This document shows positions 7,709-55,719 of a DNA stretch of 64,000 nucleotides, piece after piece (the first letter of the stretch is position 1; the number at the start of each line of letters is the position of its first letter). Below the pieces are notes generated by a model. The model saw only the letters and a program-made list of their open reading frames with translations. It was not told the origin of the DNA and did no database searches. Position numbers and translations under genes: made by a program. This DNA is from Acidobacteriota bacterium (GTDB lineage Bacteria; Acidobacteriota; Thermoanaerobaculia; Gp7-AA8): positions 372,001-436,000 of the forward strand of contig QHVT01000005.1 in assembly GCA_003223645.1 (NCBI GenBank), written 5' to 3'.

Positions 7709-7790
7709 AAAAGCAGAAATCAAAAAGCAGAAAGCAGAAATCCTCGCGCTGCACATTTCTGCTTTTTGCTTTCTGATTTCTGATTTCTGC
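7709..7790. repeat. Inverted repeat of AGCAGAAATC words
   Basis: Left arm about 7709-7741 repeats AAGCAGAAA/ATCAAA words; right arm about 7755-7790 is the complementary TTTCTGCTTTTTGCTTTCTG series. The loop is about 13 bases. It fills the moaD-moaE gap and would fold in the joint transcript. Confidence 0.8.
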
Positions 7791-7791
7791 T

Positions 7792-8741: not shown

Positions 8742-9475
8742 ACATCCGCTCGATTACCGCGCCGAATCCCGGCCCGTTCACGCTCGACGGCACGCGCACG
8801 TATCTCCTCGACGATCACGCCGTCATCGATCCCGGCCCCGCGATCGACTCGCACATCGACGCGATCCGCGCGGCAATGCCGAACCTCCGCACGATCTTCA
8901 TCACCCACCGCCACGCTGATCACGCGCCGGCCGCGATTCCGCTCAAGCGCGCCACGAACGCGCAAATCGTCGCGCCGCGCGGTGTGCTGGACGAAACCGA
9001 TCGCATCGTCAACGACGGCGACGTCGTTGACGCGCTCGAAGTCATTGCCACGCCGGGCCACACCAGCGAGCACGTCTGCTTCCTCACAAACGACGGAGAT
9101 CTCTTCACCGGCGACACGATCCTCGGCTTCGGCACGACCGCGATCTTTCCGCCCGACGGCAACATGGCCGACTACCTCCGCTCGCTGCACAAGCTCCGCG
9201 CGCGCAACCCGAAGCGTATCCATCCCGCGCACGGTCCCACGCGCGACGACGCCGTCGCGCTGATCGACGAGTACATCGCGCATCGACTGGAGCGCGAGCG
9301 ACAGGTCCTCGATGCGCTCGCGCGCGGCGCAACGACGATTTCCGACATGCGCACTCTCATCTATCCCGATCTCGACGAGCGCCTGCACCGCGCAGCGGAA
9401 GTGCAACTGCGCGCGCATCTCATCAAGTTGCAGGACGAAGGACGCGTGCCGCTCGCCTTCGGCTCGTGGGATTGA
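8738..9475 (+). CDS. Metallo-beta-lactamase-fold hydrolase (LACTB2-like)
   Basis: 245 residues. Zinc-ligand motifs are in order: THRHADHAP (HxHxDH), TPGHTSEHVC, LFTGDTILGF and a late HPAHGP. The C-terminal ~60 residues form a winged-helix-like tail (TISDMRTLIYPDL...LRAHLIKLQDEGRV) as in LACTB2 and related RNase/thioesterase-like enzymes. Substrate unknown. It starts at ATG overlapping the Nudix stop by four bases, so it is translationally coupled to it. Confidence 0.88.
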   Translation: MNIRSITAPNPGPFTLDGTRTYLLDDHAVIDPGPAIDSHIDAIRAAMPNLRTIFITHRHADHAPAAIPLKRATNAQIVAPRGVLDETDRIVNDGDVVDALEVIATPGHTSEHVCFLTNDGDLFTGDTILGFGTTAIFPPDGNMADYLRSLHKLRARNPKRIHPAHGPTRDDAVALIDEYIAHRLERERQVLDALARGATTISDMRTLIYPDLDERLHRAAEVQLRAHLIKLQDEGRVPLAFGSWD

Positions 9476-9562
9476 GGATTGAGAATTGAGGATTGAGGAA
9501 AAGCCTAGCCGAAGACCTTCCTCAATTCTCAATCCTCAATCCTCAATCCTCAATCCTCAATT
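9471..9562. repeat. Inverted repeat of GATTGAGG/GAATTGAGG words
   Basis: Left arm 9471-9500 is ATTGAGGATTGAGAATTGAG-type words, right arm about 9519-9562 the complementary CCTCAATTCTCAATCCTCAA series. The left arm starts in the stop codon of the MBL gene. The same word family recurs at 31335-31432. Confidence 0.85.
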
Positions 9563-12066: not shown

Positions 12067-12560
12067 TGTCATCCCGAGCGTGAGCGAGGGACCTGGGGCT
12101 CGGGTGGCGGCACGAGGCACGCGCCTCGTAGCCCCGCCCGCCCAGGTCCCTCGCTGAACGCTCGGGATGACGGAGCTCGGGTGGCGGCACGAAGCACGCG
12201 CCTCGTAGCCCCGCCCGCCCAAGTCCCTCGCTGAACGCTCGGGATGACGGAGCGTGGGCGAGGGACCTGGGGCTCGGGTGGCGGCACGAGGTACGCGCCT
12301 CGTAGCCCCGCCCGCCCAGGTCCCTCGCTGAACGCTCGGGATGACGGAGCGTGAGCGACCTGGGCTCGGGTGCGGCACGAGGTACGCGGGCGAGCCGATC
12401 GACGTCTTCTATTACACCGTCACCGTGAATTTCAAACTGCAGTGATGTCATCCCGAGCGTGAGCGAGGGACCTGGGGCTCGGGTCGCGGCACGAGGTACG
12501 CGCCTCGTAGCCCCGCCCGCCCGGGTCCCTCGCTGAACGCTCGGGATGACGGAGCGCACC
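12060..12560. repeat. Array of GTCATCCCGAGC hairpin elements with duplicated gene tail
   Basis: Four to five tandem units, each with CGAGGGACCTGG-type left part, a middle GGCTCGGGTGGCGGCACGAG and a right part CCAGGTCCCTCGCTGAACGC. Outer arms GTCATCCCGAGCGT and ACGCTCGGGATGAC pair repeatedly. Between units, 12385-12445 repeats the 3' end of the upstream gene (from CGCGGGCGAGCC through its stop) with a 3-base insertion, then re-enters the element. No gene is supported in this 517-base gap. Confidence 0.9.
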
Positions 12561-16380: not shown

Positions 16381-16749
16381 ATGCGAAAAACCAGCAGCAT
16401 CATTCTTCTCGCGGCGGCCCTCCTTTTCGCGTGCGAAGGCAAGATCGAGCCGAGCGCCGAAACCAAGAACAACCTCATCGACCAGCAAAAGAAGGCGAAG
16501 CAGACCATCGACGAAGCGCAAAAGAAAATCGATCAGGCTACGTCTGATGCGAGAGAAGCGCTGAGCGAGACCGCGGAACAGATCAAGCAGTCCGAGGCCG
16601 CGCAGCGCATCGCCAACGGCGCGAAAGAGGCCGGCAAGGGCGTGCAACAAGGCACGGGCGAAGCGGTCGAAAACGCAGGCGAGGCGATGGCGCAAAAAGG
16701 ACGCGAGCTGCAGCAGAACGCGAAGAAGCCGCCGGCGAAGAAGCAGTAG
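16381..16749 (+). CDS. Small helical lipoprotein
   Basis: 122 residues. The signal MRKTSSIILLAAALLFAC ends in a lipoprotein cysteine. The mature chain is almost entirely amphipathic helix rich in Gln, Lys, Glu and Ala (QQKKAKQTIDEAQKKIDQAT), coiled-coil like, with a basic proline tail. Resembles small structural lipoproteins such as Lpp/OsmE-like or YtxH-like helices in character only. Divergent from hslO. Downstream lies the 43-base tandem array. Confidence 0.75.
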   Translation: MRKTSSIILLAAALLFACEGKIEPSAETKNNLIDQQKKAKQTIDEAQKKIDQATSDAREALSETAEQIKQSEAAQRIANGAKEAGKGVQQGTGEAVENAGEAMAQKGRELQQNAKKPPAKKQ

Positions 16750-17213
16750 AAATTTTCGATTTCTTCGACGTCTCGCGTCTCAGAACGGCCAGAGCCGCGA
16801 CCTTTCCGCTAAGTCAATTTGACTTCCAGCGTAGTCAATTTGATCTCGGAACAAGTCAACCGTGACTTCCGGCGTAGTCAATTTGACTTCGGAGCAAGTC
16901 AACCGTGACTGCCGGCGTAGTCAATTTGACTTCGGAGCAAGTCAACCGTGACTTCCGGCTTACTCAATTTGATCTCGGAGCAAGTCAACGTGACTTCCGG
17001 CGTAGTCAATTTGACTTCGGAGCAAGTCAACGGTGACTTCCGGCGTGGTCAATTTGACCTCGGAGCAAGTCAACCGTGACTTCCGGCGTAGTCAATTTGA
17101 CCCGGAGCAAGTCAACGGTGACTTCCGCGTAGTCGACGTCGAGGTCTGGGGAGCTCGTCGATGCTTTCCCGGATAGGAACGTCCATCCTGCCACGACGTA
17201 AGCCGAAGAAGGC
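16750..17213. repeat. Tandem array of 43-base units with phased AGTCA/TGACT dyads
   Basis: From 16811 to 17128 there is one partial and seven near-identical units (starts 16831, 16874, 16917, 16960, 17002, 17045, 17088). Each unit carries AGTCAATTTGACT and AGTCAACCGTGACT, both imperfect dyads, whose centres are about 21.5 bases apart within and between units. So about 15 dyads recur at two helical turns. Units of 43 bases are not a multiple of three and no spacers vary, so it is neither coding nor CRISPR. The rest of this 464-base gap (16750-16810, 17129-17213) has no gene I can support. Confidence 0.92.
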
Positions 17214-18098
17214 TTACGCTTCGCTCGGTCGCCACGCAAGGAACCACGGCTCGCGCCTGCCGAACTTCGTTGCCAGGGCAGTGCCGATCGCAAACACGCT
17301 TGCGAGTCCCCATACGATCGGTCCGATGATGGGAATCAGCCGGATCGCGCCGAGAATCAGCGCGCCGATGACGACCATCGCGAGATCGCCGCGCAGCCAT
17401 GTGCGCGACGCGAGTTGTTGGCGCGATCGCGAGCCCGCAACGATCGTTCCCGCGGCGTGGAACACCGCGATCATGCCGTAGACCTTCGTGAGAATTGCGA
17501 AGACCGCAAGCGCGGCGAGGAGTGGCACGCCGATGACGTACGGGATGAGATAGCTGAACGCGATCGCGGTGAGGACGAAGCTCGTGAATGCGACGAGGCC
17601 GAGAACGAAGCAGTGCAGGCCGCTGGCGCGCACTTCGATCGACGACAGGCGAATCTCGCGTCCGCTCATCAGCGTCACGACGATGGCGGTGATGAGCCAT
17701 ACCAGGAGCAGCGAAGCGACGATCGCGTTCTTCGTCATCGACGCGGTCGCGCCTTCGACGGACGCCAGCGGATAAACGTGACCGCGCACGCGATTGTCCG
17801 CGTTCGTCACCTTGCTCGCGGCGTAAATGAGATTTCCTTCGACGCGTCCCGCGCCGGTGAACACGACGGCGCCGCCGAGGACGAGGAGATCGCCGGCGAT
17901 GACATTCGCGACCGTGACGTTGCCGCGATAGACCTGCACGCTCCCCGCGACCGGTTTGTTGATCGTCGCGGACTTGCCGATGACGTAGAGGTCTTTCGAG
18001 AACGCGTGGCGCTCGTTCGCGCTGGTCGGCGCGACGACCATGCACAGCGTGACGATCGCTGCGATCGACGTCAGCGGAACGACCAGCCGTTTAAACAT
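17214..18098 (-). CDS. Bactofilin-like polymer-forming domain fused to membrane helices
   Basis: 294 residues. After an N-terminal hydrophobic signal/anchor come short beta-repeats typical of bactofilin-like right-handed helices (DLYVIGKSATINKPVAGSVQ, NVTVANVIAGDLLVLGGAV, GAGRVEGNLIYAA). The second half has about four membrane segments (NAIVASLLLVWLITAIVVTL; FVLGLVAFTSFVLTAIAFSY and others). Such fusions are common next to ECF sigma/anti-sigma pairs and are thought to act in envelope structure; the role here is inferred. It overlaps the anti-sigma gene by eight bases, so it is co-translated with it. Confidence 0.8.
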   Translation of the reverse strand: MFKRLVVPLTSIAAIVTLCMVVAPTSANERHAFSKDLYVIGKSATINKPVAGSVQVYRGNVTVANVIAGDLLVLGGAVVFTGAGRVEGNLIYAASKVTNADNRVRGHVYPLASVEGATASMTKNAIVASLLLVWLITAIVVTLMSGREIRLSSIEVRASGLHCFVLGLVAFTSFVLTAIAFSYLIPYVIGVPLLAALAVFAILTKVYGMIAVFHAAGTIVAGSRSRQQLASRTWLRGDLAMVVIGALILGAIRLIPIIGPIVWGLASVFAIGTALATKFGRREPWFLAWRPSEA

Positions 18099-18532: not shown

Positions 18533-18620
18533 AAAATCAGAGAGCAAAAAGCAGAAAGCAGAAATGCTTGTCGTACCTGTGTGCGATTTCTGCTTTCTGC
18601 TTTCTGATTTCTGCTTTCTC
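18533..18620. repeat. Inverted repeat of GCAGAAA words between sigma and anti-sigma genes
   Basis: Left arm about 18533-18564 (AAAATCAGAGAGCAAAAAGC...) pairs with right arm about 18586-18620 (TTTCTGCTTTCTGCTTTCTG...). It lies inside a sigma/anti-sigma operon, where an RNA hairpin could change the ratio of the two products. Confidence 0.75.
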
Positions 18621-25423: not shown

Positions 25424-25515
25424 GAAATCAGAAAGCAGAAATCAGAAAGCAGAAGGGAGCGAATGTCGCCGGCTTTGTCTTTCTGCTTTCTGATTTCTGC
25501 TTTTTGCTTTTCCTT
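25424..25515. repeat. Inverted repeat of GAAATCAGAAAGCAG words within gcv operon
   Basis: Left arm 25424-25455 and right arm 25478-25510 are complementary word series (GAAATCAGAAAGCAGAAATC against TTTCTGATTTCTGCTTTTTG). It occupies the whole gap between the gcvPA stop and gcvPB start, so it is transcribed with the operon. Confidence 0.8.
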
Positions 25516-31334: not shown

Positions 31335-31432
31335 GGCGCGAATTGAGGATTGAGAATTGAGGATTGAGAATTGAGGATTGAGGCTAGGCCGGAACGACTT
31401 CCTCAATCCTCAATCCACAATCCTCAATCCCG
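31335..31432. repeat. Inverted repeat of GATTGAGAATTGAG words
   Basis: Left arm about 31335-31384 iterates AATTGAGGATTGAG; right arm about 31400-31432 gives CCTCAATCCTCAATCCACAA words. Same family as 9471-9562. The centre GGCTAGGCCGGAACGAC resembles the AAGCCTAGCCGAAGAC centre of the other copy in opposite orientation. Confidence 0.8.
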
Positions 31433-55642: not shown

Positions 55643-55719
55643 CGGGCAGTAGCGCAGCCTGGTAGCGTACCTGAATGGGGTTCAGGTGGTCGGGGGTTCA
55701 AATCCCCCCTGCCCGACCA
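55643..55719 (+). tRNA. tRNA-Pro(GGG)
   Basis: Acceptor stem CGGGCAG/CTGCCCG with discriminator A and encoded CCA; D arm GCGC...GCGT; anticodon stem CCTGA/TCAGG around ATGGGGT, anticodon GGG; T arm GGGGG/CCCCC with TTCAAAT. Length 77. C1:G72 and A73 are the proline identity features. Its 3' part is the integration site of the following island. Confidence 0.95.

Follow-up and report, generated by a model that had tools for sequence, protein, structure and literature searches.

A tandem dyad array between convergent genes

The window, a stretch of 64,000 nucleotides from the genome here termed G000, contains a tandem array of short dyads that fills the gap between two convergent genes. The "bactofilin" label that the initial annotation gave to the gene at 17214-18098 is not supported by Pfam, in which no family came near its cut-off. 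The features of the locus are:

16381..16749, + strand: lipoprotein-like gene, 3´ end towards the array, no Pfam family above cut-off (context only)
17214..18098, - strand: gene earlier labelled bactofilin, 3´ end towards the array, no Pfam family near cut-off (context only)
16811..17134, no strand: solo dyad array of two alternating dyad types (TRF, dyad scan and sequence)
16812..16824, no strand: type-1 dyad AGTCAATTTGACT, with exact copies at 16876-16888, 16919-16931 and 17004-17016
Centres 16839, 16968, 17053 and 17096: inexact type-1 dyads (dyad scan)
16854..16867, no strand: type-2 dyad AGTCAACCGTGACT (dyad scan)
Centres 16903.5, 16946.5, 16989.0 (one base shorter), 17031.5, 17074.5 and 17116.5: other type-2 dyads

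TRF reported 43 bp x 7.4 copies (91% match, 16820-17134), extended to 16811-17134 by looser scoring, and a dyad scan placed 15 non-overlapping AGTCA..TGACT-type dyads across the array. Twelve of these had at most one mismatch to AGTCA..TGACT, whereas 200 shuffles gave 0.04 on average and never more than 1, and the palindromy of the array gave a column-shuffle z of 3.3. The 43-base unit is made of two dyad types in alternation, type 1 being AGTCAATTTGACT and type 2 AGTCAAC(C/G)GTGACT, with one copy of the latter one base shorter. Dyad centres run from 16818.0 to 17116.5 in steps of 20.5-21.5 bases (mean 21.36, rms residual 0.27). These results confirm what had first been described, about 15 such dyads in a 43-base tandem array with a regular step of ~21.5 bases. 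The further proposal that the dyads lie on one face of the DNA holds only approximately, since the phasing depends on the twist assumed: the helical coherence of the centres was 0.60 at 10.5 bp per turn and 0.93 at 10.75. Variation, first described as falling mostly outside the AGTCA/TGACT halves, also reaches into them; four of the 15 dyads have 1-3 half mismatches, and in one of the four, GGTCAATTTGACC, pairing is kept by changes on both sides.

We agree with the earlier view that the array is neither coding (its period is 43 bp and it lies in a convergent intergenic gap) nor CRISPR, because the sequences between dyads are themselves repeated and there are no unique spacers. When Rfam was applied to the whole window at gathering thresholds, the only match was a tRNA at 55643-55716, and the array had no family match. 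Elsewhere in the window, inverted pairs of heptad tandem repeats (e.g. AAAGCAG..TTTCTGC) were noted at 7710-7791, 9469-9561, 18534-18619, 25424-25510 and 31340-31430. These would form long hairpins, one of them between anti-sigma-like and sigma-like genes. A GC-rich 77/97-base repeat at 12095-12556 is unrelated to the 21-base class described below.

The orthologous place in related genomes

In the congeneric genome G001, no tandem array was found next to the orthologue of the 17214-18098 gene; a 73-base inverted repeat lies there (L104 2400-2562), and an isocitrate-dehydrogenase-like gene (labelled by eye) replaces the lipoprotein gene. Absence from sister strains, named at the outset as an argument against a functional array, is thus only partly borne out, given the inverted repeat and the different neighbour. 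The window array may coincide with a break in synteny. In G010, which belongs to another genus, a 29-base repeat x 4.2 with a hairpin-like core stands beside the orthologous gene (L105 1340-1462).

These two repeats, together with the position of the window array between convergent genes, would suit a bidirectional 3´-end element, either a terminator or an mRNA stabiliser. We regard this as very unlikely, however. The window dyads have no following T-tract, and other arrays of the same family are flanked, according to our own gene caller, by divergent (L083, L089) or tandem (L084, L085) genes; the arrays linked to gene family X (below) are on its 5´ side.

Related arrays in the home genome

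The home genome, of 6.38 Mb, contains 17 exact copies of the 13-base dyad, which fall within five array regions. BLAST with the window array gave 13 matches, all in G000, which fall in nine array regions including the window (best E of another same-family array, 1e-51), and no match in the 39 other genomes of that search. The two-dyad pattern was present in one of 148 genomes of the class. G000 therefore holds at least eight further arrays of this sequence family. Units of 41-43 bases made of two modules characterise eight of the nine arrays; the array at C4 has mostly 21-22-base units, and part of the one at C41:251k has a 20-base unit. Each array is internally homogeneous and different from the others. 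Related arrays are dispersed, but each keeps the ~21-base step, which sets them apart from the randomly spaced, non-phased repeat that had been raised as a contrary outcome.

The flanks of these arrays share nothing general, the exceptions being the paralogous C46 and C29, a 36-54-base flank repeat common to four arrays, and X genes beside those of C21 and C40. Since sister arrays have unrelated neighbours, the local context of lipoprotein-like and putative sigma/anti-sigma genes does not seem to bear on the meaning of the window array.

A wider class of arrays with a ~21-base step

The survey used a fixed criterion, a ~21n period in any TRF row, and covered 964 kb of G000 with the window among them, 520 kb of G001 and, for G005, G009, G011 and G018, 83-100 kb apiece. 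The G000 sample had 26 strong non-coding arrays, 19 of which were flagged; one (L199) was discounted as a heptad repeat, leaving 18 of 26, two of them neighbours in L135 (binomial p = 8e-5, with 31% of the period range allowed). Elsewhere, strong non-coding arrays of this type numbered one of two in G001, three of three in G005, none of none in G009 and none of two in G011, while two of two in G018 were flagged but left uncounted; these resemble 56-base and heptad repeats. A 71-kb sample of G014 had further ~21n arrays (L247-L249), and 100-kb samples of G022, G028 and G035 had none with at least 72% match, coding and non-coding repeats being taken together there.

The ~21-base step is thus common to G000 arrays of differing sequence. 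Palindromy is less specific. Column-shuffle z was positive for 30 of 30 arrays and above 2 for 21, and for X-linked arrays the corresponding counts were 37 and 25 of 40, but coding tandem repeats were also positive in 28 of 32 cases (above 2 in 11 of 32), and palindromy was downgraded as a property of the class. The dyad excess of X-linked arrays was modestly above that of coding repeats (Mann-Whitney p = 0.019). For the array class, the step is the stronger feature.

Arrays lie upstream of gene family X

Listing the neighbours of arrays revealed a recurrent protein, X, mostly of ~170-205 amino acids with a Lys/Ala/Pro-rich tail. Members of X had no confident match in Pfam, NCBIfam, PHROG or PDB, the best being that of one member to an unnamed PHROG (9e-4), and no transposase family matched. 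In the sampled sequence, tblastn (E <= 1e-4) found X in seven stretches, all seven with an array; four of these had been fetched for their array and three (L092, L094, L122) independently of it. At E <= 0.01 there were 24 matches in G000, 38 in G005, one in G001 and none in 15 further relatives. An X profile (E <= 1e-5, eight candidates scored per genome) picked out three of 396 genomes of the phylum, G000, G005 and G014, and X was also found in G017 when this genome was searched with G000 alone. A plasmid or phage origin was rejected, the window array having no match among 72,556 plasmid records and the X protein of L251 no match in phages or plasmids and no relative in viral contigs. Judged by eye from translations, some X genes precede a lipoprotein-like gene with a patatin-like one further on, and others a protealysin-like gene (L274, L276 and L278, L253).

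We then compared 52 X places: 22 in G000 (from 31 matches, some being pieces of one gene and five lacking a fetched locus), 14 in G005 (from 38 matches), the eight reported in G014, seven of nine in G017 (L313, a fragment at a contig end, and L314, a second match next to L305, being omitted) and the one in G001. Among the 46 copies with at least 1.4 kb of upstream sequence, 39, from five genomes, had a ~21-base-step array within 1.5 kb upstream, and none of 51 had one downstream. For ordinary G000 genes under the same TRF settings, arrays were found upstream of 21 and downstream of 26 of 614 (under other settings, upstream of 21 of 663). Fisher tests gave p = 1e-41 against 21/663 and 3e-20 for upstream versus downstream, values that are inflated by the relatedness of the X copies. 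In the G014 set, which was retrieved once the idea was in place, seven of eight X genes had an upstream array. Two of the upstream arrays were weak, the one in G001 (score 125) and one in G017 (121), and seven X genes had none (L315, L317, L318, L322, L265, L302, L309); L265 has a weak, sub-threshold repeat downstream. Of the six places with shorter flanks, one had an upstream array and L259 another that was weak and sub-threshold. In G005, the contigs of L269, L271 and L273 stop ~190-220 bases upstream of X, where the array is expected; repeats may have broken the assembly there.

Across the 40 X-linked arrays (the 39 and one with a short flank), the module measured 21.13 +/- 0.31 bases (range 20.5-22.0), and 64-1265 bases separate the end of the array from the X match. 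Arrays of the window's own family were among those upstream of X genes elsewhere. In the window itself, profile and tblastn searches found no X and neither of the partner genes described next (Y and HTH-Z), and we therefore call its array solo.

Leaders and neighbours of X

An Arg-rich gene, Y, is present at 16 of the 52 X places and lies between array and X where positions were read. HTH-Z, an XRE-type gene, is present at five; at L266 and L270 it is divergent from X with the array in between. Another small XRE-type HTH gene, seen in genus g5, directly adjoins 42-43-base arrays (L205 16303-16948, L226 1501-2124, L227 1502-2257). With three arrays in g5 and HTH-Z at five of 52 X places, an XRE-type HTH was rejected as the general partner of arrays.

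A promoter-like motif, AC[ACT]TT-N12-17-CGT[CA]T[AC], was detected in nine of 40 leaders, 63-109 (once 265) bases past the array, compared with a mean of 0.11 (maximum 2) in shuffles, none in reverse complements and seven in the 964-kb G000 sample. The pattern, which we take to resemble extracytoplasmic-sigma promoters, was the second that we used and was chosen after viewing the leaders, so these figures are partly post hoc; the first pattern was unconvincing (8 of 40 leaders, shuffle mean 3.57, maximum 8). The motif was absent from 31 of 40 X leaders and from the vicinity of all 19 solo arrays, window included.

Array turnover and solo arrays

Arrays change faster than the genes that they precede. 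Between C8 and C51, the Y-X DNA is 91% identical and the arrays 76%; between C21 and C8, the values are 92% and 73% (gaps left out in both comparisons). For L289 and L292 of G014, X is 91% and leader-Y 89% identical, but the two arrays are no more similar than column-shuffled ones can be, with a local score of 30 against a control mean of 15.9 and maximum of 37. Some arrays are alike where X is more distant. The suggestion that arrays are cognate sites of individual X proteins is weakened by arrays that differ where X is 91% identical. In 12 paralogue pairs, homology starts 9-136 bases past the array in four, runs through the array in three and, in L253/L306, forms one block over the array and a separate one over the gene; in the remaining four, which are more distant, its start is within Y or X. 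In eight of the 12, it ends 27-121 bases after the X match. We dropped the idea of a dispersed cassette whose 5´ edge is exactly the array, since this was seen in only part of these pairs.

In the survey, most arrays are solo. X lay within 1.5 kb of three of the 18 arrays there (L092, L094, L122), and solo arrays outnumber X-linked ones by ~5:1. When 19 solo arrays were compared with X-linked ones, 14 fell into a sequence family that also contains an X-linked array; because five of the 19 came from similarity searches, the fair figure is nine of 14, window included. Column-shuffled arrays gave 0-2 pairs of 1369 in 20 runs. The window array belongs to the largest family and is 75% identical over 279 bases to the array of the C21 X gene. 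At C46 and C29, arrays of this family are found next to X copies that are broken, and solo arrays could plausibly arise in this way. Solo arrays had no fixed gene neighbour in the neighbour listing, and when 25 G000 arrays were compared with the G001 sample for synteny, we obtained five block hits at four arrays, each one-sided.

Much of this would also fit a non-functional bacterial satellite that arises by slippage or unequal exchange, is homogenised within each array and persists as a relic after gene loss, with the two-turn step a product of expansion. The faster divergence of arrays than of linked genes, the confinement of the window family by pattern to a single genome of the class, the lack of an array at the orthologous place in G001, the survival of arrays beside broken X copies and the variable neighbours of solo arrays are all in keeping with it, and the linkage could in part reflect joint duplication of array and gene, with rapid change of the array thereafter. 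A neutral process does not, however, predict arrays upstream of 39 of 46 and downstream of none of 51 X genes, nor so narrow a module range across different sequences. We consider a satellite a serious possibility, if a somewhat doubtful one.

Interpretation

A multi-site DNA array of regular dyads, as originally proposed, remains the best reading, although the absence of the array from the orthologous place in G001 counts against it. From sequence comparison, we tentatively view the window array as a solo, gene-less member of a lineage-restricted group of cis-acting arrays whose ~21-base modules would be read about every two turns. A dimeric DNA-binding factor could load on the modules at this interval to give a nucleoprotein patch. 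At X loci, such a patch upstream of the X (sometimes Y-X) promoter would control or mark the genes, and solo arrays such as that of the window would be outlying sites or remnants of X loci whose genes were lost. Because X is conserved and the arrays before it are replaced, spacing and dyad form probably weigh more in recognition by the factor than the letters do.

The window array is probably part of a repeat-and-gene system rather than a one-spot curiosity. In its fullest version, the system would comprise a basic X, joined in some cases by an Arg-rich Y. A genome would carry tens of copies, every one preceded by a separate array of ~21-base modules; the letters of the arrays would be replaced repeatedly while step and position are kept, recognition would be by spacing and dyad form, and solo arrays of the window's type would be its spread-out sites. 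Under this version, some process must make new arrays of the same step, since sequence is replaced and step retained. Taken with all of its parts, we think it unlikely to be correct.

Comparison with known systems

Iteron plasmid origins have direct repeats next to a gene, at intervals of about two helical turns. The arrays are similar in having such repeats beside a gene, but differ in their many chromosomal copies, and no replication-initiator family was found among the X and Y proteins scanned.

According to the cited part of PMC5016525, the type II plasmid centromere parC/ParR (pSK41, R1) consists of dimer-bound tandem repeats at one locus upstream of the operon. X-linked arrays likewise hold the same place relative to X (39/46), and the window array does not. 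Unlike parC/ParR, the arrays are chromosomal, number in the tens and differ in sequence, the one in the window lacking an operon, and Pfam detected no ParM-like motor or ribbon-helix-helix protein among five Y proteins, three X proteins and 18 members of A1.

REP/BIME elements, as presented in the cited parts of PMC2817692 and PMC3733652, are short palindromes in alternating pairs, extragenic, numerous in a genome and species-specific. Our arrays share the short palindromes, alternating pairs, extragenic place and many copies, but have no constant GT(A/G)G head: GTAG precedes several type-1 dyads of the window and no type-2 dyad, and is only sporadic in other arrays of the family. One gene for a Y1-transposase (PF01797, RAYT-like) was found in G000 (G000:C4:53122, L091 4623-5322). 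It is followed by 124-bp repeats with GC-rich GTGGAG..CTCCAC palindromes, not AGTCA/TGACT dyads (its upstream side was read for ~120 bases only), and this pair is probably the true REP system of G000. Spread of the arrays as REP by a transposase was rejected, since the sole Y1-transposase gene found adjoins different palindromes.

In type III toxin-antitoxin loci such as ToxIN, repeats lie upstream of a ~200-codon gene and differ between loci, and they are preceded by a promoter and followed by a terminator (PMC8860590, in the part cited). X-linked arrays match this in their tandem repeats upstream of a ~200-codon gene and in differing between loci. Such loci offer a model for a quite different role, in which the array would act as RNA, a chain of hairpins transcribed as a non-coding or antitoxin-like transcript. 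Folded as RNA, the window array outperforms all of 100 dinucleotide shuffles (z -5.98), but any palindromic repeat would fold well, whatever its role. The modules here are of ~21 bases, the promoter-like motif comes after the array, between it and the gene, at nine of 40 X loci, unlike the type III order, and the window array has no linked gene. A type III toxin-antitoxin identity is therefore disfavoured, and we judge action as RNA to be quite unlikely in general.

A search of the open-access literature, subscription papers being outside its scope, found no description of an array-X system. We rate this system, as predicted from sequence, as a new kind, because no compared known kind fits. 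Alone, the array is an ordinary tandem palindromic repeat; it is the linkage to X that makes it matter. If arrays are read by spacing rather than by sequence, this would be an unusual mode of DNA recognition. X, a family with no known relatives, mostly sits behind modules spaced by two turns, in many copies and with differing array sequences, an arrangement that sets it apart from REP/RAYT, CRISPR and parC and probably from type III toxin-antitoxin loci.
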